Positions 3,462 through 24,230 of a DNA stretch of 35,720 bases are shown piece by piece. The translations under genes and the position numbers were made by a program. The notes under the pieces are model-generated. The model was given only the letters and a program-made list of their open reading frames with translations. It searched no databases and was not told the DNA's origin. Source of the stretch: Phytoactinopolyspora halophila. GTDB lineage: Bacteria; Actinomycetota; Actinomycetes; Jiangellales; Jiangellaceae. How positions within the stretch are numbered: the stretch's first letter is position 1; the number at the start of each line of letters is the position of its first letter. Location of the stretch: the NCBI RefSeq assembly GCF_003287285.1, contig NZ_QMIG01000045.1:1-35720 (forward strand). The letters run 5' to 3'.

Positions 3462-3480
3462 CAAGTGATTAGATCACTTG
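3462..3480. promoter_or_regulatory. Probable GntR-type operator (perfect inverted repeat)
   Basis: CAAGTGATTAGATCACTTG is a perfect 8-bp inverted repeat around a 3-bp centre (CAAGTGAT-TAG-ATCACTTG). It lies 2 bp before the ATG of the GntR-family gene at 3483 and overlaps an alternative GTG start at 3465. Short GTnAT..ATnAC palindromes at the regulator's own start are typical autoregulatory sites of FadR-type GntR proteins; binding is inferred. Confidence 0.7.
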
Positions 3481-3482
3481 CC

Positions 3483-4193: not shown

Positions 4194-4237
4194 CTCATCC
4201 CGCCATTCGCCCCACTCGACCACGACGAGGTGACGAC

Positions 4238-5398: not shown

Positions 5399-5427
5399 TT
5401 CCGGCCGATCACAGTGAGGTGCCAACC

Positions 5428-6702: not shown

Positions 6703-6705
6703 ACG

Positions 6706-6748
6706 ACCGGCGGGTGCGAGAGATCGCCGACGACTCGCACCCGCCGGT
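6706..6748 (+). terminator. Stem-loop after the binding-protein gene (attenuator or mRNA stabiliser)
   Basis: A perfect 15-bp inverted repeat (ACCGGCGGGTGCGAG at 6706-6720 pairing with 6734-6748) with a 13-nt loop begins just after the stop of the binding protein. It is followed by a short T-containing stretch, TTCATTCCC. It lies inside the operon, so it more likely reduces read-through and protects the upstream mRNA than ends transcription fully, as is common after binding-protein genes. Confidence 0.7.
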
Positions 6749-6786
6749 TCATTCCCGGCTCACACACGGAAAGGACAGCCAGCGCC

Positions 6787-7683: not shown

Positions 7684-7685
7684 CC

Positions 7686-8501: not shown

Positions 8502-8515
8502 TGGAAGGAGCCTTC

Positions 8516-10596: not shown

Positions 10597-10686
10597 GCAC
10601 CGGCAATCCCCACGTCACGTCGAATACCGGTCACCCGCGGGAGCATCCGAGCCGGGATCCTCGGGCCGGCCGTCAGGAAGGAAACG

Positions 10687-12783
10687 ATGAGCATCCCCAC
10701 CATTCCCACCGTCGAGGACTTCACCAGCGATGTGATCGTCGACCGCTACGACGACATGATCAATCCGCCGGGGCTGACGAACCATCTCGCCACCGCGCAG
10801 GCCGATCACGACGTCGTCGCCGTGCGTTCCCTCAACGTCCCGCCGGTGTCCCAGGGCGACTGCGTGACCGGCCAGCTGTATCTGGGCGGGCGGCTGGCCC
10901 GCTCCTACGGTGAGGCGGTGGAGGTGCAGTGGCGCCCGGACCAGGTGCTGCGGCGCACGCGCATCGACGACTGGCAGGTGCACACCACGACGGTGTGCCC
11001 GCCGGGTGAAGCCGGAATCATCGTGCGCATCGACGTCACCAACGACGGCGCGCAGGACCGCGAGCTGCGGCTCGGGCTGTGGATCGACTCGACGGTCACC
11101 CGCTCCGGCGAACCGTGGCTGGCCGGGCCGCCACCGCAGGCGGCCAACTCGGTCACGGTCGACGGCGCGCGGCGCGTGGGCCGGCCGGACGACGGGTCCG
11201 CCGTTAGCGTGCAGGGCCTGGTGGACGGTTCCGGCCGCGACGTGACGGACGCGAACGGCACGGCCCGCATGATCGAGGCCCGGGTCGACGTCCCCGCCGG
11301 TCAGCGTCGAACGTTCGCGTACCTGCATGTCATCGGTGGCGGCGAGGCCGAGGTCACGGCGGCCTACGAGCGCATCGCGGCCGACGTGCCCGGCGCCGTC
11401 GCGGCCGCTCGCACCACGTGGGACGCGAACCTGGCGGCCATGTTCACCCCGGGCAACACCGAGTTCGGGGGCAACCTCCCGGTGCTGGTCACCGGGAACG
11501 ACGCCCTGCGGCGGCTCTACTGGTGGGGCGCCATGGGGGTGCTGTGGTTCCGGCGGGACAACCCCGCGTCGGTGCTGGGCCGCACGTACGACACGCTCAT
11601 GCCGCGCTACTGGCAGACGACGACGTTCATCTGGGACTACTCGCTGAGCTCGTACGTGCATGCCCTGCTCGACCCCGACGTCATGCGCCGCCAGATCGCG
11701 CACTGGGTGGGGCTGGACATCGACCATCATTACGGGACCGAGTGGCTGACGGGTGGACCCGTGGGCCGCTGGTACTCGGTCAACCACTACGCGATGACCC
11801 GGCTGGTCAACGACTACCTGCGGCTTCACGGGGACGACGGCTTCCTCGACGAGAAGCTGACCTCGTCGAGCGGGCAGACGCGCAGCCTGGCCGACCACGT
11901 GCGCTACTGGGCGACGGCCTGGCAGGGTCTGCGGTCGGCGTCCGGGCTCGCGGACTACGGCAAGATCGACAACCTGCTGGAATGCGTCAGCACTTACGTT
12001 CACGAGGTCGCGAGCCTCAACGCCGCGAACGTGTGGAACATGCGCGCCGCGGCGGAGATCAGCGAGTTCCGGGGGCAGCGGGCCGCGGCGGACGAGCTGC
12101 GGACCCAGGCCGACGAGCTCCTGAACCTGGTCAACGAGCTCTACGTGCCCGGGAAGGGATACTTCCACACCCGCCAGCCCGACGGCTCGCTGGTCGAGTG
12201 CCGGCATTGCTACGACTTCGCCACCGTCGGGACCACCGTCGGCGCTGACCTGCCCGCGCGGCAGCGAGACGAGATGGTGCGCTTCTTCGTCGAGGAGCTG
12301 CGCACGCCCGCGTGGATGCGGGCGCTGTCCCCCTGGGACGAGGATGCCGGCTACTCCGTGCGGGCGGATCACCAGTGGAACGGTGCCTATCCCGCCTGGC
12401 CGCCGGAGGCGGCGCGCGCTGCCATCACGCTCGGCCATCCCGAGGTCGTCCTGGAGTGGCTTCCGGGCCTGGCCGGGACGGCCAACCAGGGCCCTCCCGG
12501 GCAGGCACACTTCGTCGAGGAAGCGATCGAGCCGATCAACGGCGGGGCGCGCAAGACCCCGCCGCAGCTGCCGTACATCATCGACTGGTCGTGTTCCTCG
12601 GCCGGCTCCTGGTGCGAGCTGGTGCTGGCCGGGATCTTCGGACTGGAGGTGGATCTCGATGGCGGCGTGCGTGCCGGTGGATGCATCGCCGACCTCGACC
12701 CGAACGCGCGGCTGGAGGGCCTGGTGGTGCAGGGCCGCCGCTACGACGTCATCGGTGGCGACGTGGTGCCGTCGGAATGGTGA
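10687..12783 (+). CDS. Intracellular six-hairpin glycosidase-like protein
   Basis: A 698-residue protein with no signal peptide. The N-terminal 230 or so residues look like a beta-sandwich. The rest is rich in Trp, Tyr and acidic residues, with WWGAMGVLWFRRD, WQTTTFIWDYSLSSY and the late DHQWNGAYPAWPPEA segment, resembling the (alpha/alpha)6-barrel of six-hairpin glycosidases such as GH63, GH78 or GH95. I cannot place it in one GH family. An AGGAAGGAAA ribosome site precedes the ATG. As the last gene of the sugar operon it probably cleaves the imported oligosaccharide in the cytoplasm. The palindromic repeat at 12784 begins directly after its stop. Confidence 0.75.
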   Translation: MSIPTIPTVEDFTSDVIVDRYDDMINPPGLTNHLATAQADHDVVAVRSLNVPPVSQGDCVTGQLYLGGRLARSYGEAVEVQWRPDQVLRRTRIDDWQVHTTTVCPPGEAGIIVRIDVTNDGAQDRELRLGLWIDSTVTRSGEPWLAGPPPQAANSVTVDGARRVGRPDDGSAVSVQGLVDGSGRDVTDANGTARMIEARVDVPAGQRRTFAYLHVIGGGEAEVTAAYERIAADVPGAVAAARTTWDANLAAMFTPGNTEFGGNLPVLVTGNDALRRLYWWGAMGVLWFRRDNPASVLGRTYDTLMPRYWQTTTFIWDYSLSSYVHALLDPDVMRRQIAHWVGLDIDHHYGTEWLTGGPVGRWYSVNHYAMTRLVNDYLRLHGDDGFLDEKLTSSSGQTRSLADHVRYWATAWQGLRSASGLADYGKIDNLLECVSTYVHEVASLNAANVWNMRAAAEISEFRGQRAAADELRTQADELLNLVNELYVPGKGYFHTRQPDGSLVECRHCYDFATVGTTVGADLPARQRDEMVRFFVEELRTPAWMRALSPWDEDAGYSVRADHQWNGAYPAWPPEAARAAITLGHPEVVLEWLPGLAGTANQGPPGQAHFVEEAIEPINGGARKTPPQLPYIIDWSCSSAGSWCELVLAGIFGLEVDLDGGVRAGGCIADLDPNARLEGLVVQGRRYDVIGGDVVPSEW

Positions 12784-12871
12784 GTGGAGTTTCGGCCGGT
12801 GGTGTGTGGCGCTGAGGTCGTAATAGCGGCCCTTTCTCCGCGCAGAAGGTGCAGAACTCCACATCGATCAT
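12784..12871. repeat. Palindromic intergenic repeat, copy A (also at 24230)
   Basis: Begins directly after the TGA of the glycosidase gene. GTGGAGTT at 12784-12791 pairs with AACTCCAC at 12855-12862. The interior shares GTGTGTGGCG, AGGTCG and ATAGCGGC in the same order with the copy at 24230; I estimate roughly 70% identity. It lies between convergent genes and could form a bidirectional terminator hairpin, but the shared interior indicates a dispersed repeat family rather than a simple terminator. Confidence 0.8.
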
Positions 12872-12895
12872 CCAACGGGCCGTGAGCCCTCGCAG

Positions 12896-13759
12896 CTAGG
12901 CGGGGCGGCCCTGGGTGATCTTGTCCCAGAGGGAGCCGGCGTTGAGGGTCTGGACGTGGTCCATCATGTATTCCTGGCCGATGTCGACGGGGTAGCGCTC
13001 GGCGAAGTTCACCCGGGCCACGGTTTCCTCGCGCGACCAGCCGCGCGCGACGGCGTCGGAGACAGCTCGAACCCAGTCCAGGAGGTTGGCCCGCTGCCGG
13101 GCGAGGTAGGCGAGTGTCACGACGTCGCCGTGGCCGGGTATCACCCAGTCCACGTCGAGCGTGGCGATGCGGTCGAGGGCGGCGAGCCACTGTGTGACGT
13201 TGGAGCCCATCAGCCAGGTCTGGCATTCGGAGAAGATCGTGTCTCCGGTGAACACGACGCGCTCTTCGGGGACGTGCACGGCGATCTGGCCGGGCGTGTG
13301 CCCGGGGGTGTGCAGTAACTCGAACGTGTGGCTGCCGGCGCGCAGGGTCAGATCGCCGGTGAAGATGATGTCGCCGTCGTTGGGGTCGGCGAAGTACGTT
13401 TCCCGGTCGGGGAAGAGTTCCGCACCGTCGGGATCGTCGGTGGGGACCGCCTCGTAGGCGTAGGCGAACGAATCGAGGTTCGGCGTGACTTCCATGAAAT
13501 TGTCGTGGACACCCTGGTGGTGCACGACGGAGCCGGCACCCTTGAAGTAGTAGTTGCCGAAGATGTGGTCCACGTGGTGTTCGGTGTTCACCACGTATCG
13601 AATCGGCCCGTGCGATTCCGCCTCCTGACGCATGGACACGGCCTTCGTCGGCAGCTGCGGCGTGTCGATGACGACGACGCCCTCGCTGGTGACCACCATG
13701 CTGGGGTTGCAGCCGCGAAGGGTGGTGTCGGTCCAGACGTCGCCGGTCACGTTCTTCAT
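12896..13759 (-). CDS. MBL-fold metallohydrolase
   Basis: The 287-residue protein has the metallo-beta-lactamase fold signatures: NTEHHVDH (residues 58-65), HTPGHTPGQ, FTGDTIF and IPGHGD. In the HxHxDH motif the first His is replaced by Glu (E60, then H62, D64, H65), which may change metal-site 1. The start at 13759 is supported by a GAGGAGGCG ribosome site, and the ATG overlaps the stop of the upstream phosphatase gene. It is the last gene of the minus-strand operon and ends facing the sugar operon. It probably hydrolyses an ester, lactone or thioester formed in the pathway, but the substrate cannot be read from sequence. Confidence 0.9.
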   Translation of the reverse strand: MKNVTGDVWTDTTLRGCNPSMVVTSEGVVVIDTPQLPTKAVSMRQEAESHGPIRYVVNTEHHVDHIFGNYYFKGAGSVVHHQGVHDNFMEVTPNLDSFAYAYEAVPTDDPDGAELFPDRETYFADPNDGDIIFTGDLTLRAGSHTFELLHTPGHTPGQIAVHVPEERVVFTGDTIFSECQTWLMGSNVTQWLAALDRIATLDVDWVIPGHGDVVTLAYLARQRANLLDWVRAVSDAVARGWSREETVARVNFAERYPVDIGQEYMMDHVQTLNAGSLWDKITQGRPA

Positions 13760-14439
13760 GTCGCCTCCTCGTCACCCGCTGGGTCGTACTGGTGGATCGT
13801 CATGGAGCCGTCCCGACGCACCACGAGCTCCGCTCCGGTGACGTAGGCCGGTTCGCCGGGGTCGTGCCCGCTGCTGCGACGCAGGATCGAGCGGATCACG
13901 GGGGAGTGGGTCACGCCGACGACGAGGCTGCCGCGCAGCGGCCCGGGATCGGCGGTGCTGCGTGCGAACGCCGCGACCCGGTCGGCGACGGCATCGGCGT
14001 TCTCGCCGGGTGGATCGGGAAGCGACAGCCACCAGCCGATCCGGTCAGGTGCGGGGATGAACTCGGCGAAGAACGGATGGGCGCCCGCGTCGTGCTCGTC
14101 CAGGCCCGGCACCTGCGCGGCGAGTGCCGCCGCAGAGCTGACCATGTCCACCCGCACGCCGCAGACGTACACGTCGGGGTTGCGCAGCGCGAAGGCGTTC
14201 GCCGGTCCGGACACCCGGCCCGGATCGCCGACGCCCTCCACGATCTGCTCGGCGGTCTCCCGGGTGCGCCGGGTGCCGCCGTATAGCACCGTGATCGGGC
14301 CGGTCCGTCCGGCACCGATGGACTTGCCCGCGTGACGGGCGGCGTTCAGCCCGCGCTGCGTCACGGGGACGTCACCCTTGTGCGAGGTGACCTCCCCGTG
14401 CCGGAGCAGGATGACGCGGGCGGAGGAGGTGTCAGACAT
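13756..14439 (-). CDS. Histidine phosphatase family protein
   Basis: A 227-residue phosphoglycerate-mutase-like phosphatase. The catalytic motif LLRHGEV puts the nucleophilic His at residue 14, with a second active-site His in GVTHSPVIRS near the C-terminal third and Arg in TRRTRETAEQI. It would remove a phosphate through a phosphohistidine intermediate. It overlaps its neighbours on both sides (8 bp with the ABM gene, 4 bp with the MBL gene). A phosphatase in the same operon as a dikinase suggests that a phosphorylated intermediate made early in the pathway is dephosphorylated late. GENADAVADRV, with its Glu, is also typical of the family. Confidence 0.9.
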   Translation of the reverse strand: MSDTSSARVILLRHGEVTSHKGDVPVTQRGLNAARHAGKSIGAGRTGPITVLYGGTRRTRETAEQIVEGVGDPGRVSGPANAFALRNPDVYVCGVRVDMVSSAAALAAQVPGLDEHDAGAHPFFAEFIPAPDRIGWWLSLPDPPGENADAVADRVAAFARSTADPGPLRGSLVVGVTHSPVIRSILRRSSGHDPGEPAYVTGAELVVRRDGSMTIHQYDPAGDEEAT

Positions 14440-14725
14440 CGATCGTCTCGTACGTCGCGACCTCGCGGTGTTCCAGATAGTTGATGATGTAGCCGAACAC
14501 GTGCTCCTGGAAGTGCGGGCTCGCCTTGTGTTCCTCGTATCCCGCTTGGTCCACGTACTGCTCGTAGAGGAAGAACGTCCGGGGATCGTCGGGGGAGACG
14601 TGGGCCTGGTAGTAGAGGTTCTTCTCTTCGGCCCGCGACAGCGGCGTCATCGTGCGGATGACGTCCTCCACCCGCTTCTCCTCGCCGGGCTTGGCCTTCC
14701 AGATGGCGGCGACCACGAATGGCAT
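14432..14725 (-). CDS. Small ABM-domain protein (putative quinol monooxygenase-like)
   Basis: A 97-residue protein (MPFVVAAIWKAKPGEEKRVED...) with the dimeric alpha/beta-barrel pattern of the antibiotic biosynthesis monooxygenase (ABM/YgiN) family: a central FFLYEQYVDQAGYEEHKASPHFQE segment with the conserved His and Tyr. The frame is open upstream, but ATG 14725 is chosen for its GGGGCGAAAG site and because the family starts there. Members act as cofactor-free oxygenases on quinols or polyphenols, or simply as small-ligand binders, so activity is not certain. Presence here points to an aromatic or quinoid intermediate. Confidence 0.85.
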   Translation of the reverse strand: MPFVVAAIWKAKPGEEKRVEDVIRTMTPLSRAEEKNLYYQAHVSPDDPRTFFLYEQYVDQAGYEEHKASPHFQEHVFGYIINYLEHREVATYETIDV

Positions 14726-14799
14726 GTCTTTCGCCCCTTCATTTCGACGACTTTCGGTCAGGGCTGGAGCTGTCCGGATCCCGGCTCGTTTCGGCCATG

Positions 14800-15675
14800 T
14801 CAGGGACCCGGGCCGACACGGTTGCGCAGGACACCGATCCCGTCGGCCTCCATCTCGACGAGGTCGCCGGGCTGCAGCCACCGGCCGAGTTCGAGACCCG
14901 AACCACCGGCGATGGTGCCCGAGCCCAGGACTTCACCGGCACGCACGGTGAGGTCCCGGGACGCGTAGGCGATCATGTCGGCGAACGTGTGGTGCATGTT
15001 CGTGCTGGTGTCCTCGCCCCACACCTCGCCGTTCACCCGGACCCGCAGCACGATCCCGGCAGCGCCGAACTCGTCGGGAGTGGCGATGCAGGGGCCAAGG
15101 ACGTTCGAGCCGTCCCAGTCCTTGGCCTTGCACGGGCCCATCCCGACGGGAAGCTCGCGCGTTTGCACGTCGCGGGCGGACATGTCGTTCCAGATCGTGT
15201 AGCCGAACACGTGGTCCATCGCCCGGGCACGGGGTATGTCCTTGCCGGCGCGTCCGATGACGGCGGCCAGCTCCAGCTCGTGGTCGAGCTTCTCCGTGTA
15301 CGACGGCCACGGGATCTCCTCGTCCGGGCCGATGACCGTCTCCGGCAATCCCTTGTAGTAGGCGGGTACGGCATACCACTCGTCCGGTATCTGCTTGCCC
15401 AGCCCGGCGAAGGCGTTCTTCAGGTGGCCCTCGAACGCCATGAAGTCGCGCAGCGTGCGCGGCCGCAGCGGGGCACGCAGCACGGCGTCGGAGACGGGCC
15501 GGGTCTGGCCGAGCGGGGCACCGGCCTCGATGAAGGCGACCATGTCCCCGTCGAACCCGGCGTCGATCACGACGTCACCGCCGTCCCCACCGTCGCCACC
15601 GTCGCGGTCCCCAGTGTCGCTGTCGAGGTACCCGACGCGTTGCCGTCCCCGGGATTCGTACGTCACGTATCTCAC
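14800..15675 (-). CDS. Fumarylacetoacetate hydrolase family protein
   Basis: The 291-residue protein has the FAH domain, with the metal ligands in DHELELAAVIG (E133, E135) and WNDMSARDVQ (D164), and the PAYYKG and late GSGTIAGGSGLE motifs. Members hydrolyse C-C bonds or decarboxylate and isomerise ring-cleavage products of aromatic pathways. GTG 15675 overlaps the stop of the iron-sulfur subunit gene (GTGA) and has a GAGGAGG site. Residues 19-34 form an unusual Gly/Asp run (DRDGGDGGDGGDVV), perhaps a repeat expansion. A 74-bp gap separates it from the next gene in the operon. Confidence 0.92.
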   Translation of the reverse strand: MRYVTYESRGRQRVGYLDSDTGDRDGGDGGDGGDVVIDAGFDGDMVAFIEAGAPLGQTRPVSDAVLRAPLRPRTLRDFMAFEGHLKNAFAGLGKQIPDEWYAVPAYYKGLPETVIGPDEEIPWPSYTEKLDHELELAAVIGRAGKDIPRARAMDHVFGYTIWNDMSARDVQTRELPVGMGPCKAKDWDGSNVLGPCIATPDEFGAAGIVLRVRVNGEVWGEDTSTNMHHTFADMIAYASRDLTVRAGEVLGSGTIAGGSGLELGRWLQPGDLVEMEADGIGVLRNRVGPGP

Positions 15676-16115
15676 CGCGCCGCCTCCTCGATCGCGTCGA
15701 CGATCTTGACGTAACAGCCGCACCGGCACAGGTTCCCGCCGAGACCCTCGCGGATCTCCTCCGGCGTGTTCGCCCGGCCGGTGTCGATCATGTCCCTGGC
15801 CGTGAGCACCATGCCCGGGATGCAGAAGCCGCACTGGAACGCGTGGCGTTCGGAGAAGCAGCGCACCACCGCGTCGTCGTCGGGAAGTCCCTCGACGGTG
15901 GTGATCCGCTTTCCGATGGCCAGGGGTGCCATCAGCAGGCACGACGAGACGGGCCGGCCATCGAGCAGCACGGTGCACGTACCGCACAGCCCGACGCCGC
16001 AGGTGGCGCGAGCGCTGGTGATGCCGAGCTCGTCGCGCAGGACGTCGACCAGCATGGTGCTCGGCGCGACGTCGACGTCGACGCTGCGGTCGTTGACGCT
16101 CAGCGTGATTTTCAT
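15672..16115 (-). CDS. Molybdenum hydroxylase, [2Fe-2S] small subunit (CoxS/XdhC-like)
   Basis: The 147-residue subunit has the plant-ferredoxin-like cluster ligands C39, C44, C47 and C59 (CGVGLCGTC...C) and the second helical-domain cluster ligands C95, C98, C130 and C132 (CGFC...CRC). It passes electrons from the molybdenum centre to FAD. ATG 16115 is chosen because GGCAGGAGG lies just upstream and overlaps the stop of the large-subunit gene (ATGA); the open frame further upstream is not needed. Length matches the family. Confidence 0.96.
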   Translation of the reverse strand: MKITLSVNDRSVDVDVAPSTMLVDVLRDELGITSARATCGVGLCGTCTVLLDGRPVSSCLLMAPLAIGKRITTVEGLPDDDAVVRCFSERHAFQCGFCIPGMVLTARDMIDTGRANTPEEIREGLGGNLCRCGCYVKIVDAIEEAAR

Positions 16116-18277
16116 GGTGCCTCCTGCCGCGGGTGCACGCGGGAGGCGAGGACACGCTCCGGTGTCATGGGCAGCCTGCACGGGTGGTAGCCCAGGCTGG
16201 CCACGGCGTTGCCGAGCGCCGGAGGTACCGGCGGCACCGCGGTCTCGCCCAGCCCGTGGACCTCGGCACCGGGAGTCTCCAGCAGCCGGTGGTGGATCGT
16301 CGCGCCATCCAGGGCCGAGGCGATGTTGTACTCCGACAGGTTCGGGTTCACCAGCTGGCCGTCGACGTAGGTGAGTTCCTCGAACAGTGCCGTACCCAGC
16401 GACATGATCATCGATCCTTCGTTCTGCAGTTCCGCCGCGGCCCGGTGCACGACGCGCCCGGCGTACGACGTCGCGTAGAGCGAGCGCACGTCGATGATCC
16501 CCGTCTCGTCGTCGACGTCCACGTGCGCCGCCGCGGCGCCCTGGTGCCAGTGCGACGACGCCACACCCGTGCCGGTGTCCGGGTCCAGCCCGCCGTCGTT
16601 GACGATCCGGCCATGCCCGACCGTGCCGTTCGCCCGCAGGTCGTCGGCCGCGGCGGCGAGCGCACGGCTCATCATGTGGGTAGAGCGGCTGGACGTCGTC
16701 CGGGTGTCATACGGGGCAAGATCGGTGTCCGGTGGTGGCACGACGATGTGCTCGGGCGGCACGCCCAGTACGTCGGCGGCCATGCGGGTGAGCGCCTCGG
16801 GCGCGCCCTGGCCCATGTCGGCGGTCGCGCTGCGGACCTCGAACCGGCCGTCGGGAAGCGCGTGGATCGCGACCTCGGCGCGGCTGGGTGTCTGCATGCC
16901 CTTGAGTATGATCGCCACACCCTTGCCGTCGCGCCCGTCGTTCCAGGCCACAGCCTTGGCAGCGTCGTCGAGGAGCTCCTCGAAGTGCGTGTCGTGCATG
17001 ATCTCGCCGGTGCAGAACGCGTCGCCGTCCCGCAGGAGGTTCATCCGGCGCAGCTCCACCGGATCGATGTGCAGCTCGCCGGCGAGCATGTCCACCAGGC
17101 GTTCGGATGCCCACGCCGACTGCATCGCGCCGTAGCCACGGAACGCCCCGGCAGGCGGGAGGTTGGTGTAGGTGCAGTAGGAGTCGACCGCCACGTGGTC
17201 GAACCGGTACGGCCCGACACCCGCGTAGCCCAGCTTCTGCGCCACGCCCGGCCCGCAGTCGGCGTAGGCGCCGGTGTTGACGTAGGCGACCATCTGTTTG
17301 GCGACGAACCGGCCCTCGCGGGTGGCGCCCATGCGCATCCACACCGTGCTGGCATGCCGGGTGACCTCGGAGAAGACCTCGTCGCGGTCGAGCACGCAGC
17401 GCACCGGCTTGCCGGTGAACGCGGCGGCGACCGCGGTGATCGCCTCGGTGCGCATGAACGTCTTGGCGCCGAACGAGCCACCCATGGCCGGGGCGACGAC
17501 GCGGACGTCGGCGGGATCGAGCCCGAAGAGGGCCGCGAGGTCCTGGCGCAGGTTGAACGGCGTCTGCGTCCCGGTGATCACCTCCAGGCGGCCGTCGACC
17601 CATTGGGCCGTGGTGGCGTGCGGTTCCATGGGCACGTGGGCGGCCGCTGGCGTGCGGAACGTCTCCTCAACGACGATGTCGGATCCGGCGAAGGCGTCGG
17701 ACATCGTGGCGTCGTCCAGCGGCGGCAGCTCCCGGATCAGTTCGGGCTCGTCGTACCCGCGCAGTTCGGGGGTGCGGATGCGGAAGCGGTGGCACACGTT
17801 GGTGCCGTCGAGCGGGCGCATGGCGAAGTAGGCGGCGTCGCCCGATGCGCTCGCGTGCGAGGTGTGCACGAGCGGCGCCGACGCGGTTGCCGCCTCGAAC
17901 TCGTTGAAGACGCCGTGGGCCTCGTCGTAGTCGAGCTGGATGCTCGCCGCGGCCTCCCGGGCTGCCTCCGGCGTCGGCGCGACGACGGCGACAACGGGGT
18001 CGCCGGCGAACTTGGGTTCGGCAGCGAGCACGCGCTGGTCGGCGATCTGGCAGCCGAACGTGCCGTACGCGGCGACATCGGCGGGGGTGATGATGGTGAC
18101 GTCGCTCTCGACCCCCGTCGTGTCGATGTCGACCACCCGGCCGGCAGCCACGTCGGAGCGCACGAGGCGCAGGTGCCACGCACCCGGCACGTGGTGATCG
18201 ATCGAGTAGTCGAGGCCGCCGACGACGCGGGGATCTGCCGGAGACGGCCCGGGGGAGCGGCGCATGTCGGCGGTCAT
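16112..18277 (-). CDS. Molybdenum hydroxylase, molybdopterin-binding large subunit (xanthine dehydrogenase family)
   Basis: A 721-residue catalytic subunit. It has GGSFGAK (about residue 265) and GAFRGYGAMQSA (about 376) around the molybdopterin, and GLGETAVPP (about 676), whose Glu is the base that activates water. It lacks the VAYRCSFR loop of CO dehydrogenase, so it should hydroxylate an organic substrate (an aromatic N-heterocycle, aldehyde or aryl compound) rather than CO. The substrate-facing residues do not tell me which. ATG 18277 overlaps the FAD subunit stop; ATG 18265 is an alternative. The subunit order M-L-S is like the cox/xdh-type operons. Confidence 0.95.
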   Translation of the reverse strand: MTADMRRSPGPSPADPRVVGGLDYSIDHHVPGAWHLRLVRSDVAAGRVVDIDTTGVESDVTIITPADVAAYGTFGCQIADQRVLAAEPKFAGDPVVAVVAPTPEAAREAAASIQLDYDEAHGVFNEFEAATASAPLVHTSHASASGDAAYFAMRPLDGTNVCHRFRIRTPELRGYDEPELIRELPPLDDATMSDAFAGSDIVVEETFRTPAAAHVPMEPHATTAQWVDGRLEVITGTQTPFNLRQDLAALFGLDPADVRVVAPAMGGSFGAKTFMRTEAITAVAAAFTGKPVRCVLDRDEVFSEVTRHASTVWMRMGATREGRFVAKQMVAYVNTGAYADCGPGVAQKLGYAGVGPYRFDHVAVDSYCTYTNLPPAGAFRGYGAMQSAWASERLVDMLAGELHIDPVELRRMNLLRDGDAFCTGEIMHDTHFEELLDDAAKAVAWNDGRDGKGVAIILKGMQTPSRAEVAIHALPDGRFEVRSATADMGQGAPEALTRMAADVLGVPPEHIVVPPPDTDLAPYDTRTTSSRSTHMMSRALAAAADDLRANGTVGHGRIVNDGGLDPDTGTGVASSHWHQGAAAAHVDVDDETGIIDVRSLYATSYAGRVVHRAAAELQNEGSMIMSLGTALFEELTYVDGQLVNPNLSEYNIASALDGATIHHRLLETPGAEVHGLGETAVPPVPPALGNAVASLGYHPCRLPMTPERVLASRVHPRQEAP

Positions 18278-19083
18278 CGGCTCACCTGCATCAATGCGCG
18301 GCGGACCTCGACGCTCACCACCTGGCGCCGGTACTCGGCGGAACCCCGGCCGTCGTCGAGACACGGGATCCGGTCGGCGTAGGCGGCGGCGACCTCCCGC
18401 GTGCTCTGTTCGTCACCGGGCCGCCACTCGGCGCAGATGTCCGGGTAGTGTCGGGGCCGGTCGCTGACCGCCCCGACGACGACGCGGACGCCGCCGGTCT
18501 CGCGGACCGCGGCGACCGACACGGCGGGACGATCCTCCCGCGATCTGGTCCGCAGCTTGCGGTACGCGGCGCTGCCCGTGGGACGGGGGACGAGGACCCG
18601 GGTGATGATCTCGTCGTCGTCCAGTTCGGTCTCGTAGTGACCGACGATGAGCTCCTCGATTGGCACCCGGCGCATGCCGCGGACGCTCGCCACCTCGGCG
18701 ACCGCGCGGGAAGCGACGAGCATGGCCGGGGGATCGGACGCATAGTCGGCGTCGGCGAGCACGCCACCGATAGTGGCGACGTTGCGGACCCGCGGGCTGG
18801 CGACGACACCGAATGCCTCGGCCACGCCGGGCCAGTCCCGCCGCACCGCCGGCTCCGTTTCGATCCGGCGATGGGTGACCATGGCGCCGGCCGAGAGATC
18901 TCCGGCAGTGCCGAAGGCGCGGAGCTCGTCGACGTTCTGCAGCGAGATCCACTCGTCGCTGTCCAGCAAGCCCTGCCGGATCACCAGGCCCAGGAACGTC
19001 CCACCGGCGACGACGGTGGCGTCGGGCTTGCTCGCCTTCAGCCGCAACACCTCGTCGACGGTCGTGGGCATGTGCCAGGACAT
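18274..19083 (-). CDS. Molybdenum hydroxylase, FAD-binding medium subunit (CoxM-like)
   Basis: The 269-residue subunit has the two FAD pyrophosphate motifs: VVAGGTFLG (residues 24-32) and NVATIGGVLADADYASDPPA (about 97-116). The C-terminal CO-dehydrogenase flavoprotein domain follows. ATG 19083 is preferred because GGAAGGAG lies 5-6 nt upstream; ATG 19110, overlapping the stop of the preceding gene, is in frame and possible. It accepts electrons from the iron-sulfur subunit and passes them to NAD, a quinone or another acceptor. Confidence 0.94.
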   Translation of the reverse strand: MSWHMPTTVDEVLRLKASKPDATVVAGGTFLGLVIRQGLLDSDEWISLQNVDELRAFGTAGDLSAGAMVTHRRIETEPAVRRDWPGVAEAFGVVASPRVRNVATIGGVLADADYASDPPAMLVASRAVAEVASVRGMRRVPIEELIVGHYETELDDDEIITRVLVPRPTGSAAYRKLRTRSREDRPAVSVAAVRETGGVRVVVGAVSDRPRHYPDICAEWRPGDEQSTREVAAAYADRIPCLDDGRGSAEYRRQVVSVEVRRALMQVSR

Positions 19084-19106
19084 CGGCGCTCCTTCCGGGC
19101 TCGCGC

Positions 19107-19931
19107 TCATACCGTCGTCACCGGGCGCGACTGCAACATGTACAACCCAGTGTCGTCGTAGGCCCACTCGATGTCTTGCGGACACCCGTTCAGCTCCGCG
19201 AGTTTCAGCCCGAGCAGGGTCAGCTCGGCGAGCTCGTCGTCGCTCATGACCCGCTCTCCGGCGATCCGGCGCCGCTTCACGGTGCCCCGGTGATCGATCG
19301 TGTAGTGATCGGGGGTGACCTGGCCGGAGACCACCTGCTCGCCGATGCCCCGGGCCGCTTCGACGACGACGCGGTCGCGCCGCCGGGTGACGGGATCGAC
19401 GGTGAAGAGCACGCCGGACTTGGTGGCGTCGACCATGCGCTGCACCACCACGGCCATGGCGACGTCGTCGAGGCTGCCCTTGTGCTGCCGGTAGAACACG
19501 GCCCGCTCGCTGAAGAAGGACAGCCAGCAGCCCACGATCGCCCGCAGCACGTCGTCGAGATCCCGGACGAACAGGAAGGTCTCCTGCTGCCCGGCATACG
19601 ACGCGGCGTCCCCGTCCTCGGCGCATGCTGACGAGCGGACGGCGACCGGCCCGGCCGGAAGGCGATCGTATGCCTGCTTCACCAGATCCCGTGGCGGCTG
19701 GGCGCTGGCCACGAGCTCTCGGGCCATGTCCAGATCGCCGGCTTGCAGGGCCGAGAGCAGTGCCGTGCCGTCGACCGCCTGGACGAAAGCCGGTGCCGTG
19801 ACGACGAATCCCGGCGGCACCCGGATGCCGTTGCGGATCATGTTGGCCAGGCTCGCGCCCTTGCCTCCGGCACGGCGGACGTCGCAGGTGCGCGGGTCGT
19901 CGAGATCCAGCACGAGTAGTGCGTCGCTCAT
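19107..19931 (-). CDS. PEP/pyruvate-binding (ATP-grasp) subunit of a split dikinase, CreI/PpsB-like
   Basis: The 274-residue protein matches only the N-terminal nucleotide-binding domain of PEP synthase: AGGKGASLANM (residues 21-31), VAVRSSACAEDGDAASYAGQQETFL (about 96-120), QRMVDATKSGVLFTVDPV, and the closing DIEWAYDDTGLYMLQSRPVT. It ends there naturally, with no swivelling phosphohistidine domain; that domain is on the protein encoded at 20566-22296. Split pairs of this type include phenylphosphate synthase of Thauera and the CreH/CreI 4-cresol kinase of Corynebacterium. It should use ATP to phosphorylate the partner's histidine. The ATG overlaps the regulator's stop. Confidence 0.9.
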   Translation of the reverse strand: MSDALLVLDLDDPRTCDVRRAGGKGASLANMIRNGIRVPPGFVVTAPAFVQAVDGTALLSALQAGDLDMARELVASAQPPRDLVKQAYDRLPAGPVAVRSSACAEDGDAASYAGQQETFLFVRDLDDVLRAIVGCWLSFFSERAVFYRQHKGSLDDVAMAVVVQRMVDATKSGVLFTVDPVTRRRDRVVVEAARGIGEQVVSGQVTPDHYTIDHRGTVKRRRIAGERVMSDDELAELTLLGLKLAELNGCPQDIEWAYDDTGLYMLQSRPVTTV

Positions 19932-20569
19932 GTGTCCGCTCCCGTCACCAGCGCGCCGAACGATTCGATGTGCGTGCGCAGCTCCTTGCCGACCAGGGTG
20001 GGATCGCCTTCGCGCAGGGCATCGAGAATCGGCAGGTGAGAATCGGGGATGGCGACCAGATCGAGATGCGCCTTGACCATGCTGACCAGGGTGAAGACCT
20101 CGATGCGCAGGCCGCTCCAGGCCTCGAGGAGCACGGAGTTCTCCGCCGCTTCCACGATCAGCTCGTGGAAGCGGGCGTCGTGAACGAGCAGCTCGTGCTG
20201 GTCCTGCGCCCGCGCGGCGGTCCGCATGCCATCGATCTCGGACTCCAGCTTGGCGATGAGGTTCTCGTCCACCTTGACGGCCGCGAGCTGGCCAGCGAGC
20301 TCTTCGAGCGCGGCACGCACGGGATACGTCTCGCCCAGCTCTTCGGCCGTCACGGCCCGGACGCGGGCCCCGCGGTAGGGCTGGGATTCGATGAACCGCA
20401 TCGCCTCAAGATCCCGCAGGGCCTCGCGGACCGGCGCCTGGCTGACGTTGAGCTCGTTGACGAGCTGCAACTCGACGACCCGTTCCCCCGGCTTGTACGT
20501 GCCGTCGAGAATGCGCTCGATGACCAGCTCCTTGATGCGCTCGCGCATCACCGTGCGTTCCAGTGTCAT
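19928..20569 (-). CDS. GntR family (FCD) transcriptional regulator of the dikinase operon
   Basis: A 213-residue regulator with a GntR winged helix at residues 1-75 (LQLVNELNVSQAPVREALRDLEAMRFI) and an FCD domain (about 80-205). The FCD metal or ligand residues are in HDARFHELI, PDSHLPILDAL and RTHIESFG. ATG 20569 overlaps the stop of the large dikinase subunit, and its own stop overlaps the small subunit start, so it is translationally sandwiched between the two halves of one enzyme. The perfect palindrome GATTATCGATAATC on the operon promoter is its likely operator, giving an autoregulated substrate-inducible operon. Confidence 0.93.
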   Translation of the reverse strand: MTLERTVMRERIKELVIERILDGTYKPGERVVELQLVNELNVSQAPVREALRDLEAMRFIESQPYRGARVRAVTAEELGETYPVRAALEELAGQLAAVKVDENLIAKLESEIDGMRTAARAQDQHELLVHDARFHELIVEAAENSVLLEAWSGLRIEVFTLVSMVKAHLDLVAIPDSHLPILDALREGDPTLVGKELRTHIESFGALVTGADT

Positions 20570-22296
20570 GACAGAACCTGCACCAACCCCGTCGTCCCGT
20601 TGACGCGTACGCGATCGCCCGTCGCGATCCGCCGGGTGGCGTCCGATGTGCCGACGACGGCGGGGAGCCCGAACTCGCGGGACACGACCGCCGGATGCGA
20701 GGCCATCCCGCCGGCGTCTGTGACCAGGCCGCCGATCCTGGTGAAGAGCACGACCCAGGCCGGGCTCGTCATCCGGCAGACGACGATCTCGTCGCGTTCC
20801 ACGTCGTCGAACTCCTCCTGCGAGAGCACCACGCGTGCGGTGCCCTCGATAACCCCCGCCGATGCCGCCAGGCCCCGGACCTCGTCCTCGGTCGTGGCCT
20901 GGGGCCGGTACAGCTTCTCCGGGAATCCCCACAGCGACAGGTACGGGAACGCCAGGTGTTCCTCGGTGGCGGTACCCACCCAGTCCCGTGGGCGGATCTC
21001 GTACGCCGCCTCGCGCTCGTCGCGCCGGTTCCCGACGAGCTCGCGCTGGTCGAACGAGTTGCTGCCGGCCATGAGCGTGCGCAGCTCGTTGTATTTCAGA
21101 TACATCACGTCTTCGGGATCGTCGAGCTTGCCCGCCTCGGTCAGCTTCTTTCCGATGGCGATCAACACGAGGCGGACCCGCGCGTTGGTGCCCTGATCGA
21201 TGTAGAAGTGATGATCCGGAGTGAGGGGGTTCATGCGCAGGCTCAAGTCGAGCGCGTGTGCGAGGCGGTCGCGATCCTCGCCCTCCGGCACACCCTCCAT
21301 GACCTCGGCCTTGGCCGCTTCGAGATCCTTGGCCACGGCAGCGATCTCGTCGGGGAAGCTGTAGCCGGTCTCGATGTAGCCGCGGATGGCTTCGATGATC
21401 GGAGAGGGGTCTTCGCGCCACGTCTTGAACGCGAACTCGTGCGCGTACATCGACTTGTAGCCGAAGACCTGCTGGTACTGTTCGATGTCCGTGTCCAGGA
21501 ACTGGCGGCCCTCGTCGGCGTGGCGAAGTTCCGCGAGCACGTCGCCTGCCGACTGTTGCTCGAACGCCCGGGCGACCGGGCTGTTCGGGCTGCTGACGAT
21601 CTTCTCCTTGATCTTCCAGAGCTCTTCGATCGAATCCCAGTTGCGATTCGTCGTCGAGCTTTGCAGCCGTCCCATGAGCGCGCTGTGATCTCCCTCGCCC
21701 TTGACCTCGGCGATGAGCGCGTTCAGGTTCGTGGTGGCCGAGAACTGGGCGAAGTTGAGGACCCAGTGGATCTGCCAGTGCCGGTCGTGCATGTCGATGG
21801 CGTCTTCGAGCAAGATCGCCAACTCGACGAGACTGGCGTTCTCGTAGTCGTAGGTGTCGAACCGCTCGAAGTTGCGCGTGATCTCGGGCACGAGGCGGCC
21901 GTGCCACCAGTCGAGGAAGTTCTCCGCGTAGTAGGGGAGTGTCCAGCCGAGGTAGCCGCCGATCTCTGCGGCGTAGTTGTCATCCAGGGGCGTGCGGGGC
22001 GTGTAGCGGGCGCCGTATTCGAATGCCTCGGCGCTCAAACCCTTGGTGGCCGGGACCGCGGCGGTGTAGACGTAACCGTTGATGATCTTGACGATCCAGT
22101 CCGACGCGAACGGCGTTCCGAAGCGGCGGAACATGTAGTCGCACTTGAGCCACCAGCCGCCGATGTCGGCGTACATGGGGGAGACGGGGTTGGGGATGTG
22201 CAGGTCGTCATGCACCCACAGGAGCTGTTGCTGCCCTTCTTCCCACGTGATGGGGAACTCGTCGTCGCCGAAGAACGTGGCGATCGGTTGAGTCAT
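20566..22296 (-). CDS. PEP-utilising swivelling-domain subunit of a split dikinase, CreH/PpsA-like
   Basis: The C-terminal 90 or so residues are the PEP-utilising mobile domain, with DAGGMASHPAVVSREFGLPAVVGT placing the phosphorylated His at residue 534. The first 480 residues are a substrate-binding region with many aromatics (WWLKCDYMFRRFGTPFASDW, WTLPYYAENFLDWWHGRL) and do not resemble the PEP-binding barrel of PEP synthase. No ATP-grasp domain is present; it is encoded at 19107-19931. The enzyme would carry phosphate from its His to a small-molecule hydroxyl, as in phenylphosphate synthase, CreHI or rifampin phosphotransferase. The gene is first in the operon, has a GGAGG site and lies 33 bp from the operator. 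Confidence 0.88.
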   Translation of the reverse strand: MTQPIATFFGDDEFPITWEEGQQQLLWVHDDLHIPNPVSPMYADIGGWWLKCDYMFRRFGTPFASDWIVKIINGYVYTAAVPATKGLSAEAFEYGARYTPRTPLDDNYAAEIGGYLGWTLPYYAENFLDWWHGRLVPEITRNFERFDTYDYENASLVELAILLEDAIDMHDRHWQIHWVLNFAQFSATTNLNALIAEVKGEGDHSALMGRLQSSTTNRNWDSIEELWKIKEKIVSSPNSPVARAFEQQSAGDVLAELRHADEGRQFLDTDIEQYQQVFGYKSMYAHEFAFKTWREDPSPIIEAIRGYIETGYSFPDEIAAVAKDLEAAKAEVMEGVPEGEDRDRLAHALDLSLRMNPLTPDHHFYIDQGTNARVRLVLIAIGKKLTEAGKLDDPEDVMYLKYNELRTLMAGSNSFDQRELVGNRRDEREAAYEIRPRDWVGTATEEHLAFPYLSLWGFPEKLYRPQATTEDEVRGLAASAGVIEGTARVVLSQEEFDDVERDEIVVCRMTSPAWVVLFTRIGGLVTDAGGMASHPAVVSREFGLPAVVGTSDATRRIATGDRVRVNGTTGLVQVLS

Positions 22297-22328
22297 GAGA
22301 GCCTCCAGGCGATGCTGCCCGTTCTATT

Positions 22329-22342
22329 GATTATCGATAATC
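22329..22342. promoter_or_regulatory. Perfect 14-bp palindrome, probable GntR operator
   Basis: GATTATCGATAATC equals its own reverse complement. It lies 33 bp before the start of the minus-strand operon and covers the proposed -10. Its AT-rich TATCGATA core is typical of FCD-type GntR sites; the cognate regulator is probably the one encoded at 19928-20569. Confidence 0.75.
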
Positions 22343-22365
22343 GAGTGTGATCTGGGTCATGTCAA
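22337..22365 (-). promoter_or_regulatory. Probable promoter of the dikinase/molybdenum hydroxylase operon
   Basis: On the minus strand, TTGACA (22365-22360) is a consensus -35. After 17 bp comes GATTAT (22342-22337) as a -10, which lies wholly inside the palindromic operator, so regulator binding would block RNA polymerase. Confidence 0.65.
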
Positions 22366-22487
22366 GGGTTCACCGCGAAGAGGCGTAAATCGCGTGGTTG
22401 GCGTCGAGTTGCGGAGTACGCCCGCCCGCCATATGGTTGTATCGACCAACTTTCTAGGAGAGCCGGACTCGATTCCGTGATGTGTCC

Positions 22488-24230
22488 ATGACAACGGCCA
22501 CAAATGGAGATGCGGCGATATCACATCGCCAGGTGTTGCAGGCGCTGTCGGGGCTGTTCCTCGCGATGTTCGTGGCGATGCTCTCGGGCACCATCGTCGC
22601 CAACGCGCTTCCCCCGATCCTGGCCGATCTCGGCGGTACCCAGGAGCAATACACCTGGGTGGTGACGTCGACGCTCCTCGCAGCCACGGCGGTGACGCCG
22701 ATCTGGGGCAAACTCTCCGACCGGATGAACAAGAAGCTCCTGGTCCAGCTGGCGATCACCATCTTCGTGCTCGGATCGATCCTCGCCGGATTCGCGCAGA
22801 GCACGTCGATGCTCATCGGTTTCCGGGTGCTGCAAGGCGTCGGCATGGGAGGCCTCCAGGCGCTCGTGCAGATCGTCCTGGGATCGCTGGTCAGCCCGCG
22901 CGAACGCGGCCGGTACATGGGCTACTTCGGTGCGGTCATGGCGGTGGCCACCGTCGGCGGCCCCGTGCTGGGCGGGTTCATCGTCGACGCCGGGTTCTTG
23001 GGATGGCGCTGGTGCTTCTGGGTCGGTGCGCCGGTAGCGGTGGTCTCGCTCGTCCTCCTGCAGCGGACCTTGCACCTGCCGGTGCTCAAGATCACGACAC
23101 CGATCGACTGGCGTGGAGCGCTGCTCATCCCGGGAGGCATCAGCATCCTCCTCGTGTGGGTGACGTTCGCGGGTGAGAGCTTCGCGTGGGTGTCGTGGAC
23201 CAGCCTGGCCTGCATCGGTGCGGGAATGCTGGTCATCGTTGCTGCGGTGCTGGCCGAGCGGCGGGCCGTCGATCCCGTGGTGCCACCGCGGTTGATGCGG
23301 CAACGCACCATGACCCTGGCCATCGTCGCCAGCGTGGCCGTGGGGATCTCGATGTTCGGTGCGCCGGTCTTCTTCGCCCAGTACTTCCAGGTCGCGCGCG
23401 GCTTCGCGCCGATGGAGTCCGGCCTGCTGACCATTCCCATGGTCGTCGGGCTCATGCTCGCCACGACCATCACCGGCCAGCTGGTCTCGCGTACGGGCCG
23501 GTGGAAGAGGTTCTTGGTGGGCGGCACCAGCCTGATCATCGTCGGGCTCGCGTTGCTGTCCACCATTGACCACACGACACCGGTGTGGCACGTCAACATC
23601 TACATGGGCGTGATGGGGATCGGTGTCGGCTCGACGATGCAGAACCTGGTCTTGGCCGCGCAGAACCGGTTGGACTACCGCGATCTCGGCGCGGGAACGT
23701 CCACGGTCACGTTCTTCCGCACCCTGGGCGGAGCGACCGGGGTGTCGGTGCTCGGAGCGATCCTCGCCACGCGGGTGACCAGCTCGATTGCTGAAGGGCT
23801 GCGAGGCCTCCAGGGTGATGCCGGCGGTGCCGACGCGGCGCAGCTCGGCGGCTCGACGTCGCTCGACGTGTCCGAGCTACCATCTCCCGTGCGCACGGTG
23901 GTCGAGCAGGCTTACGCTGACGCCACGGCGCTCGTCTTCGGGGTGTCGGTATTCGCGGCCGTGATCGCCTTCGTGGCGGTGCTCTTCCTGCGTGAGGACA
24001 CGCTTCGCACGACGATCCGCAGCGCAGGCGAGTACGGCGACGAGTACAGCGCAGCCGAGCACGGCAACGCATCCGGTGCCGGCGCGCACATTGGTGACGG
24101 TGCGTACAGCGATGATGGCGAGTACGGCGACGGCGGTGTGCACGGCGGCGGTGTGTACGGGGACGACGGCGGGCCTGTCGAGCGCCCTGCCAGTTACCGG
24201 AACGGAGTGACCTGCCGGCACCGGTTCTGA
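22488..24230 (+). CDS. MFS transporter, DHA2 (EmrB/QacA) family
   Basis: A 580-residue membrane protein with about 14 predicted transmembrane helices. It has the DHA2 motifs LSGTIVANALPPILADLGG and TPIWGKLSDRMNKK (motif A), plus a GPVLGGFIVD motif C typical of drug/H+ antiporters. The C-terminal 60 or so residues are an unusual hydrophilic tail rich in Gly, Asp, Tyr and His, with repeated (E/V)YGD units. ATG 22488 is chosen over GTG 22482; the only clear AGGAG (about 22455) is too far upstream, so translation initiation is uncertain. Divergent from the dikinase operon, it may export or import the pathway substrate or a toxic intermediate. Confidence 0.9.
   Translation: MTTATNGDAAISHRQVLQALSGLFLAMFVAMLSGTIVANALPPILADLGGTQEQYTWVVTSTLLAATAVTPIWGKLSDRMNKKLLVQLAITIFVLGSILAGFAQSTSMLIGFRVLQGVGMGGLQALVQIVLGSLVSPRERGRYMGYFGAVMAVATVGGPVLGGFIVDAGFLGWRWCFWVGAPVAVVSLVLLQRTLHLPVLKITTPIDWRGALLIPGGISILLVWVTFAGESFAWVSWTSLACIGAGMLVIVAAVLAERRAVDPVVPPRLMRQRTMTLAIVASVAVGISMFGAPVFFAQYFQVARGFAPMESGLLTIPMVVGLMLATTITGQLVSRTGRWKRFLVGGTSLIIVGLALLSTIDHTTPVWHVNIYMGVMGIGVGSTMQNLVLAAQNRLDYRDLGAGTSTVTFFRTLGGATGVSVLGAILATRVTSSIAEGLRGLQGDAGGADAAQLGGSTSLDVSELPSPVRTVVEQAYADATALVFGVSVFAAVIAFVAVLFLREDTLRTTIRSAGEYGDEYSAAEHGNASGAGAHIGDGAYSDDGEYGDGGVHGGGVYGDDGGPVERPASYRNGVTCRHRF

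Follow-up and report, generated by a model that had tools for sequence, protein, structure and literature searches.

The subject of this analysis is a 35,720-nt stretch of Phytoactinopolyspora halophila DNA (NCBI RefSeq assembly GCF_003287285.1, contig NZ_QMIG01000045.1, positions 1 to 35,720; hereafter, the window), in which ten minus-strand genes (22296 to 12896) encode a two-component dikinase, a GntR-family regulator, a three-subunit molybdenum (Mo) hydroxylase, a fumarylacetoacetate-hydrolase-family enzyme (FAH), an ABM-fold protein, a histidine-phosphatase-family protein (HP), and a metallo-beta-lactamase-fold hydrolase (MBL). Comparison with related loci indicates that this gene set represents a real, cross-phylum, and probably co-regulated pathway module: since the linkage of the dikinase, the Mo hydroxylase, FAH, the ABM protein, and the phosphatase is conserved, they very probably serve one pathway. 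Regarding its function, we propose, with about an even chance of being right, an operon under GntR control for the breakdown of a single small hydroxylated compound, on which the dikinase would act ahead of the Mo enzyme. Phosphorylation of a carbon source before its oxidation is rare and unexplained. The association of the same kinase family with Mo hydroxylases in Actinomycetota, Chloroflexota, and Rhodobacteraceae makes it likely that this coupling is functional and old.

Conserved linkage across phyla

A scan of genome contigs returned 157 stretches encoding a relative of the swivel and substrate-binding subunit of the dikinase (SWV). The best 80 loci were kept (designated below by L-numbers), each fetched with up to 10 kb on either side, and divided, with a quick SWV tree as a guide, into group I (n = 31) and group II (n = 49). 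Of the relatives' loci, 50 are 14 kb or longer, and 42 of these have Mo-hydroxylase genes in the fetched stretch (17/24 of group I and 25/26 of group II); with six Mo large-subunit genes in the 5.04-Mb source genome, the chance of finding one within 10 kb on either side of a given gene is about 2.4%. These counts, along with the recurrence of all ten genes in order in two further loci, exclude the lack of conserved linkage which the preliminary description of this DNA had named as a possible objection.

The hydroxylases belong to two lineages sharing ~31% identity, that of the window (MoA) and a distant one (MoB). The MoA-type counts refer to 11 of the 13 loci labelled MoA, the short contigs L053 and L056 being left out. 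The dikinase pair, the GntR gene, and the genes of all three Mo subunits were found in all 11, and FAH, ABM, and the phosphatase in 10 each. The complete set in the same order occurs in a Pseudonocardiaceae metagenome-assembled genome (MAG; L034) and in Nocardioides pini (L036), where a CoxG gene and an aldehyde dehydrogenase (ALDH) gene separate HP from MBL. Seven loci from five Thermogemmatispora, a Rubrobacteraceae MAG, and one more actinobacterial genome (L046-L051 and L071) have nine of the ten genes, without MBL and with two cyclase-family genes; L052 has eight, with one cyclase gene and with neither MBL nor the phosphatase. Apart from missing genes, the order SWV-GntR-(Cyc)-ATPg-FAD-Mo-2Fe2S-FAH-ABM-(Cyc)-HP (Cyc, cyclase; ATPg, the ATP-grasp subunit of the dikinase) is kept in 10 of the 11 MoA-type loci, from actinomycetes to Thermogemmatispora; likewise, in 10/11, the Mo genes directly follow the ATP-grasp gene in the same operon. 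In Thermomicrobium roseum, eight of the ten occur in a rearranged order on a plasmid record, with no HP or MBL annotated, together with a branched-chain-type ABC transporter and Tm-1-like, phosphoenolpyruvate (PEP)-hydrolase-family, cyclase, and DUF4202-like proteins. The CoxG gene of L036 (18641-19312; Pfam COXG) lies between the phosphatase and the aldehyde dehydrogenase; among the loci searched, its only other match, a weak one, comes from L059.

The two groups differ in the company of SWV: ATPg was found in 27/31 loci of group I vs. 3/49 of group II, ABM in 20/31 vs. 2/49, and HP in 20/31 vs. 1/49. The distribution is patchy, with some match in 45 of the 148 genomes searched around the source and a close match, besides its own genome, only in G012 (74%). 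Three plasmid neighbourhoods of distant swivel homologues contained no Mo-hydroxylase annotation.

Among the 12 nearest genomes, MoA was detected only in L034 (75% identity) and L036 (68%), the other ten yielding nothing above 39%; a MoB query against 10 MoA genomes gave no match above 38% (E-values up to 1e-80). MoB is located within the loci L038, L044, and L045. In L035, L037, and L039-L042, it lies beyond the flanks fetched initially, clustered in all six with genes of a UPF0261-like protein and an alcohol dehydrogenase, in five of six with a cyclase, and in five of six with HP, MBL, and a short-chain dehydrogenase/reductase (SDR). The distance from MoB to SWV is ~14-25 kb in 5/6 (nearest edges, same contig); in L042, they are on separate contigs. 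The alcohol dehydrogenase of the MoB cluster has matches of at most 36% in nine MoA genomes, but it is also missing from the genome of L045, which is of the MoB type. The relatives use one of these two distant Mo-hydroxylase lineages, and both together occur in no genome checked. Replacement of the Mo hydroxylase by ALDH in L035, L037, and L039-L042 was considered and rejected, as wider regions showed MoB in all six genomes.

Dikinase, hydroxylase, and putative operator

The dikinase of the window consists of two genes with the GntR gene between them, unlike the single-chain rifampin phosphotransferase (RPH). ATPg, a separate 274-aa protein, comprises PPDK_N alone, retains the motifs GGKGAS, AVRSS, DIEW, and LQSRP, and matches RPH and PEP-synthase chains. 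SWV bears the swivel motif TDAGGMASH with His534, a residue invariant across 46 sequences; the catalytic histidine pattern T/SxxGGxxxH is present, with Ala, not Thr, at the position two residues before the histidine (H-2). In the wider SWV family, the pattern occurs in 79 of 81 proteins, and 34 of these 79 have Thr at H-2. The AlphaFold model of SWV, built from 46 sequences (mean pLDDT 89.8), aligns over residues 11-576 with residues 314-867 of RPH (485 residues aligned, root-mean-square deviation 3.6 Å, Z 27.3). The fold alignments of pyruvate-phosphate dikinase (PPDK), PEP-PTS enzyme I, and pyruvate kinase to this model comprise ~100-111 residues, essentially the swivel region. Sequence searches gave a similar picture: the RPH match covers residues 236-575 of SWV and that of PEP synthase ~471-572.

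The PEP/pyruvate-binding Pfam domain, C-terminal in PEP synthase and PPDK, was found in neither SWV nor ATPg. PEP-synthase chains were not among the fold-list matches of the SWV model, which does not exclude a likeness to PEP synthase. Because of the absence of this domain, the swivel-only sequence match, and the RPH fold, an ordinary PEP synthase, which the preliminary description had kept as an alternative, is very unlikely; the findings argue against annotating such genes as PEP synthase. The RPH-like architecture, as in HpeHI, CreHI, and PpsAB (see below), predicts that the pair acts as a small-molecule dikinase. Overall, its assignment as a two-component small-molecule kinase of the RPH/HpeHI type, in line with the CreHI-type split dikinase of the preliminary description, is well supported by domain content, sequence matches, and the modelled fold, and phosphorylation of a substrate by the pair is likely.

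In L034, a second two-component dikinase (4083-9887; swivel 4083-5867, ATP-grasp 8793-9887) immediately precedes the first; its two subunit genes are separated by an inositol-monophosphatase-family gene and a methionine-synthase-like gene. In group II, a ~295-aa protein (e.g., L092:12497-13384) without a Pfam or NCBIfam match is encoded in 28-29 of the 49 loci, usually beside the swivel gene and mostly in loci without a separate ATP-grasp subunit; its model matches the PEP carboxykinase (PEPCK) fold and, more weakly, HPr kinase (HprK). Another group II protein is a shortened PPDK-like one with ATP-grasp and swivel parts (L087:6975-9161; 728 aa; above the NF004531 cut-off), with relatives in 23/49 loci, and it may supply the missing ATP-grasp function there.

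The hydroxylase has all three subunits of the xanthine dehydrogenase (XDH) family (Mo, FAD, and iron-sulfur), and the active-site motifs are present: GGSFGAK, FRGYG, DMGQG, and GLGE in the large subunit, one of which we take to carry the base glutamate, and the cysteines of the small subunit. The solved chains closest to the large subunit are those of 4-hydroxybenzoyl-CoA reductase and nicotinate dehydrogenase, along with 6-hydroxypseudooxynicotine dehydrogenase and quinoline 2-oxidoreductase. By NCBIfam, the small and medium subunits are nearest to glyceraldehyde dehydrogenase and the large one to XdhA, its scores favouring XdhA and 4-hydroxybenzoyl-CoA reductase, with all of the scores far under the cut-offs.

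A promoter scan of 12700-22600 found one consensus site vs. 0.8 expected by chance; the scan alone is therefore no evidence, and the weight is on conservation. TTGAC and the palindrome GATTATCGATAATC, which overlaps the -10 element, are invariant in the five closest aligned upstream regions. Of 81 regions, the window included, 27 have the core ATTATCGATAAT with at most one mismatch in the 300 bp preceding SWV (12 exact), with none in each of 40 shuffles and none for the reversed pattern. A looser pattern, ATnATCGATnAT, occurred 33 times in 24 kb of upstream DNA vs. 39 times in 1,229 kb elsewhere. In the source genome, the core has one exact site plus one single-mismatch site, the latter at the level of the reversed-pattern control. 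None of the 48 palindrome sites in the sampled loci falls inside a called gene, and the sites elsewhere precede GntR, transaldolase, SDR/MBL, UPF0261, and one ALDH gene. The genome of L035 has a second exact palindrome (C3:807493) ~210 bp before the alcohol dehydrogenase of its MoB cluster. The GntR protein seems the natural candidate for binding the palindrome, a putative operator; the canonical GntR site TNGTNNNACNA was not found upstream in the window and occurred in 5 of 80 regions vs. 2.3 in shuffles.

Pfam bore out each family call among the ten genes (Table 1). Eight of the nine junctions overlap, seven by 4 nt and one by 8 nt, the remaining gap being 74 nt. The preliminary description is confirmed in its coordinates and families.

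Table 1. Features of the operon and its upstream region in the window
Feature	Position	Strand	Basis
SWV, swivel and substrate-binding dikinase subunit, 576 aa, expected phosphohistidine His534	20566..22296	-	Pfam PEP-utilizers mobile domain; AlphaFold model; RPH fold
GntR/FCD transcriptional regulator within the operon	19928..20569	-	Pfam GntR, FCD
ATPg, ATP-grasp dikinase subunit, 274 aa	19107..19931	-	Pfam PPDK_N; RPH and PEP-synthase chain matches; motifs
FAD (medium) Mo-hydroxylase subunit, start 19110 or 19083	18274..19110	-	Pfam FAD_binding_5, CO_deh_flav_C
Molybdopterin (large) Mo-hydroxylase subunit, lineage MoA	16112..18277	-	Pfam Ald_Xan_dh_C, MoCoBD_1, MoCoBD_2; nearest solved chains
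Iron-sulfur (small) Mo-hydroxylase subunit	15672..16115	-	Pfam Fer2, Fer2_2
FAH-family enzyme, GTG start	14800..15675	-	Pfam FAA_hydrolase
ABM-fold protein, antibiotic biosynthesis monooxygenase/LsrG superfamily	14432..14725	-	Pfam ABM
HP, histidine-phosphatase-family protein, branch 1	13756..14439	-	Pfam His_Phos_1; RHG and second His motif kept
MBL, metallo-beta-lactamase-fold hydrolase, EHHVDH metal motif	12896..13759	-	Pfam Lactamase_B
MFS transporter, divergent from the operon, may share the promoter region	22482..24230	+	Pfam MFS_1
Palindrome GATTATCGATAATC, proposed operator	22329..22342	.	Core ATTATCGATAAT; recurrence upstream of the dikinase gene
Sigma-70-like promoter TTGACA-17-GATTAT	22337..22365	-	Consensus scan; -10 within the palindrome

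The FAH protein scored as HpaG-like and diketo-deoxyrhamnonate-hydrolase-like in NCBIfam, always under the family cut-offs, and the ABM protein had weak PDB matches including LsrG (E about 0.002). HP contains the motifs LLRHGE and VTHS. The usual metal motif of metallo-beta-lactamases is HxHxDH; 26 of 27 members of the MBL family, that of the window included, have EHHVDH. A vitamin-B6-like pathway, considered from the MBL/SDR resemblance, and an AI-2 (autoinducer-2)-like pathway, considered from the ABM/LsrG resemblance, were dropped with scores far under the family cut-offs. The divergent MFS transporter has no match in the four closest loci (L034-L037).

Beside the operon, the plus strand (3465-12783) carries a carbohydrate-type cluster with GntR/FCD, DUF4185, an ABC solute-binding protein and permease, SDR, enolase-superfamily genes, and a weak, sub-cut-off match to mannosylglycerate hydrolase. 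Positions 102-about 2900 are occupied by a CRISPR array with a 61-bp period (46 overlapping repeat-spacer-repeat copies) and the repeat GGATCATCCCCGCGTGCGCGGGGAGCAC, which we take to resemble type I-E.

Candidate substrates and the order of steps

In the proposed pathway, ATPg and SWV would form the two-component dikinase, splitting ATP into AMP and phosphate and, by analogy with characterised enzymes of this type, passing phosphate via His534 to a hydroxyl of the substrate. The Mo enzyme would oxidise this phosphorylated substrate or something derived from it directly, the histidine phosphatase would take the phosphate off again, and the FAH-family enzyme, the ABM protein, and a metallohydrolase (MBL here, a cyclase-family protein in other lineages) would complete the degradation, with the GntR protein presumably bound to the palindrome. 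This order, phosphorylation, oxidation, and dephosphorylation, is plausible.

A number of observations weigh against this proposal. An intermediate without the phosphate could be what the Mo enzyme oxidises. FAH, at an identity of at least 50%, was found in 19/31 loci of group I vs. 0/49 of group II, where there is one 40% match; the Paracoccaceae locus L059 lacks both FAH and ABM. No phosphatase was detected in L052, and none is annotated in the T. roseum cluster, which has the DUF4202-like protein in its stead (33.2 bits, under the 35.1 cut-off); by pattern match, the second TH motif is missing in five Thermogemmatispora phosphatases among the 20 proteins listed. Two loci of at least 14 kb, L043 (the stretch ends at 14,210 bases) and L061, contain no Mo genes in the fetched stretch, and 14 of 82 tree rows have neither a Mo nor an ALDH label, several of them being short contigs. 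In 54 of the 81 regions, the 300 bp upstream gave no palindrome, and the 27 that have it include near-identical loci (Thermogemmatispora) and are therefore not independent.

Clues to the substrate come from the gene neighbourhoods of the relatives; for 124 neighbouring proteins, the commonest 25 of 140 Pfam families were listed. Among the neighbours are genes for an alcohol dehydrogenase and for SDR, UPF0261, transaldolase-family, and PEP-hydrolase-like proteins. A transaldolase-family gene is present in 28 of 80 loci, in L066, L072, and L078 divergent from the dikinase with palindromes in between. IolC scored above its cut-off in L052 and L065, in the latter directly followed by a Cgl0159-type aldolase; so did methylmalonate-semialdehyde dehydrogenase in L092, and 15 other loci have relatives sharing 41-84% identity. 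None of the transaldolase, IolC, semialdehyde dehydrogenase, or other neighbour extras was found in the window operon. A same-strand run in L065 (263-10696) combines the dikinase, MoB, SDR, MBL, HP, IolC, and the Cgl0159-type aldolase and represents the best lead to the lower pathway.

Such neighbours would suit a pathway for a sugar-, cyclitol-, or polyol-like compound, in which the dikinase would target the hydroxyl of an enol or polyol, an aldehyde or carbonyl carbon would be oxidised by the Mo enzyme, and FAH would cleave a beta-diketo acid. The sub-cut-off preference of the medium and small Mo subunits for glyceraldehyde dehydrogenase and the full-length alignment of FAH to diketo-deoxyrhamnonate hydrolase, far under its cut-off, point the same way. 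We nevertheless regard this pathway as unlikely: the IolC- and transaldolase-type genes are mostly found in MoB-type clusters and not in the window, the two-component dikinases characterised so far act on phenols, and the large-subunit scores favour other families. An N-heterocycle pathway of the HpdA kind seems slightly less likely still. There, a hydroxypyridine-like compound would be phosphorylated at its ring hydroxyl by the dikinase and hydroxylated beside the ring nitrogen by the Mo enzyme, and the phosphatase would free the diol. The affinity of the large subunit to nicotinate dehydrogenase, 6-hydroxypseudooxynicotine dehydrogenase, and quinoline 2-oxidoreductase argues for it, as does the operon-borne CoxG protein of L036, resembling the separate fourth component of HpdA, whose cluster reportedly has the same pair of machines. 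Yet the CoxG protein of L036, used as a query for an HpdA-type SRPBCC subunit, had no match in the window at E 1e-3, none of the ten operon proteins has a domain of the peptidase-M29-type 2,5-dihydroxypyridine dioxygenase, and the transaldolase, IolC, and methylmalonate-semialdehyde dehydrogenase of the relatives fit poorly. As to the substrate itself, a hydroxypyridine-like compound is possible, and a sugar- or cyclitol-like one is at least as likely.

The cre-like phenol/cresol route of the preliminary description, with the Mo enzyme in the place of the P450, has fared worse and is now considered improbable. The large Mo subunit is close to 4-hydroxybenzoyl-CoA reductase and FAH to HpaG-type enzymes, and, according to the consulted parts of PMC12167813 and PMC9618137, the dikinase class is known for phenol, 4-cresol, and hydroxyacetophenones. 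However, Pfam reveals no P450 or ring-cleaving oxygenase among the ten operon proteins, and the only oxygenase among the 25 commonest neighbour families is Dioxygenase_C, with two members, both in L060. To our knowledge, Mo hydroxylases do not usually hydroxylate the alkyl side chains of phenols. Most of the neighbour families seen in the relatives do not belong to aromatic pathways, so that degradation of a phenol is not the favoured reading. More doubtful than improbable is a pathway in which the two steps are uncoupled, the dikinase trapping or activating one compound, as RPH-like ligases such as the prodigiosin enzymes PigC and RedH may do, and the Mo enzyme oxidising another, unphosphorylated one. 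The scores of ATPg to PigC/RedH are about equal to those to RPH, SWV matches them too, and the phosphatase is not universal among the loci; the position of the Mo genes directly after the ATP-grasp gene in nearly all MoA-type loci speaks against uncoupling. Finally, the RPH fold of SWV brings to mind an antibiotic-inactivating phosphotransferase with chance neighbours, an alternative already raised in the preliminary description; given that RPH is single-chain and that here two genes belong to a nine- to ten-gene cross-phylum operon with a shared palindrome, its probability is close to negligible.

Returning to the phosphorylation-first proposal, its broadest form can be put forward only tentatively, with somewhat less than an even chance: that of an undescribed cross-phylum pathway in which a two-component RPH-type dikinase generates, by phosphorylation, the compound that the Mo hydroxylase really acts on, the two Mo lineages are interchangeable, one palindrome serves as the operator, the substrate is not a simple phenol, and a protein of the PEPCK/HprK fold may replace the ATP-grasp subunit in the Chloroflexota branch. 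The palindrome, predicting a regulon, and the two Mo lineages, open to comparison, offer handles on the system, and Nocardioides pini, Thermogemmatispora species, and Thermomicrobium roseum are named carriers of all or most of the operon.

Comparison with known systems

Wang et al. reportedly found in 2020 that the Mo hydroxylase HpdA depends on two further proteins, a pyruvate-phosphate dikinase and one of the PEP-utilizing type; HpdA is also said to have a fourth, SRPBCC subunit and to feed 2,5-dihydroxypyridine cleavage. The window operon, where a Mo hydroxylase is likewise accompanied by a PEP-utilizing protein and a dikinase, resembles the HpdA cluster in this respect. Hence, the combination is not wholly new, and its novelty is lower than the preliminary description had claimed; still, no paper on this particular gene set was found by titles and abstract openings, most of the subscription literature being outside the scope of the search. 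The HpdA cluster was sought in 385 alphaproteobacterial genomes (up to three candidates scored in each), which yielded, apart from the genome used as the centre, just two weak matches. HpdA, the 3-hydroxypyridine dehydrogenase of Ensifer adhaerens HP1, and a remark on a CoxG homologue are cited in the consulted part of PMC11962113, and the consulted part of PMC6525221, on a 3-hydroxypyridine degrader, names no such genes.

RPH resembles SWV in the fold of the whole swivel/substrate-binding part and differs in being a single-chain resistance enzyme. Among solved XDH-family enzymes, the large Mo subunit is nearest to 4-hydroxybenzoyl-CoA reductase and nicotinate dehydrogenase; the NCBIfam cut-offs of the listed families are missed by a wide margin.

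The cre pathway for 4-cresol employs a P450 for the oxidation between the kinase and phosphatase steps. The dikinase of the window is, like CreHI and PpsAB, two-component and of the phenol-type family, but its operon encodes no P450 among the ten proteins, and for the Cre system no Mo hydroxylase directly after the kinase is described. The same is true of PpsAB of Thauera, where phenylphosphate is subsequently carboxylated.

HpeHI is the two-component kinase of the hydroxyphenylethanone pathway in Rhodococcus rhodochrous GD02 (PMC12167813, PMC9618137, consulted in part); its mechanism and requirement for His581 are described in the former, which, in the part consulted, also lists CreHI and PpsAB, the phenylphosphate synthase of Thauera, as its homologues (PMC12167813). 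HpeH, CreH, and PpsA share ~45% identity with one another, which serves as a family criterion. The window system resembles HpeHI in having separate ATP-grasp and swivel/substrate-binding proteins, the latter RPH-like over its full length and with the T/SxxGGxxxH motif, and in belonging to an actinobacterial catabolic operon with a phosphatase. It differs in the H-2 residue, Met in HpeH and Ala in SWV, and in the step that follows: the next enzyme of the Hpe pathway is a biotin-dependent carboxylase, and the window has a Mo hydroxylase instead.

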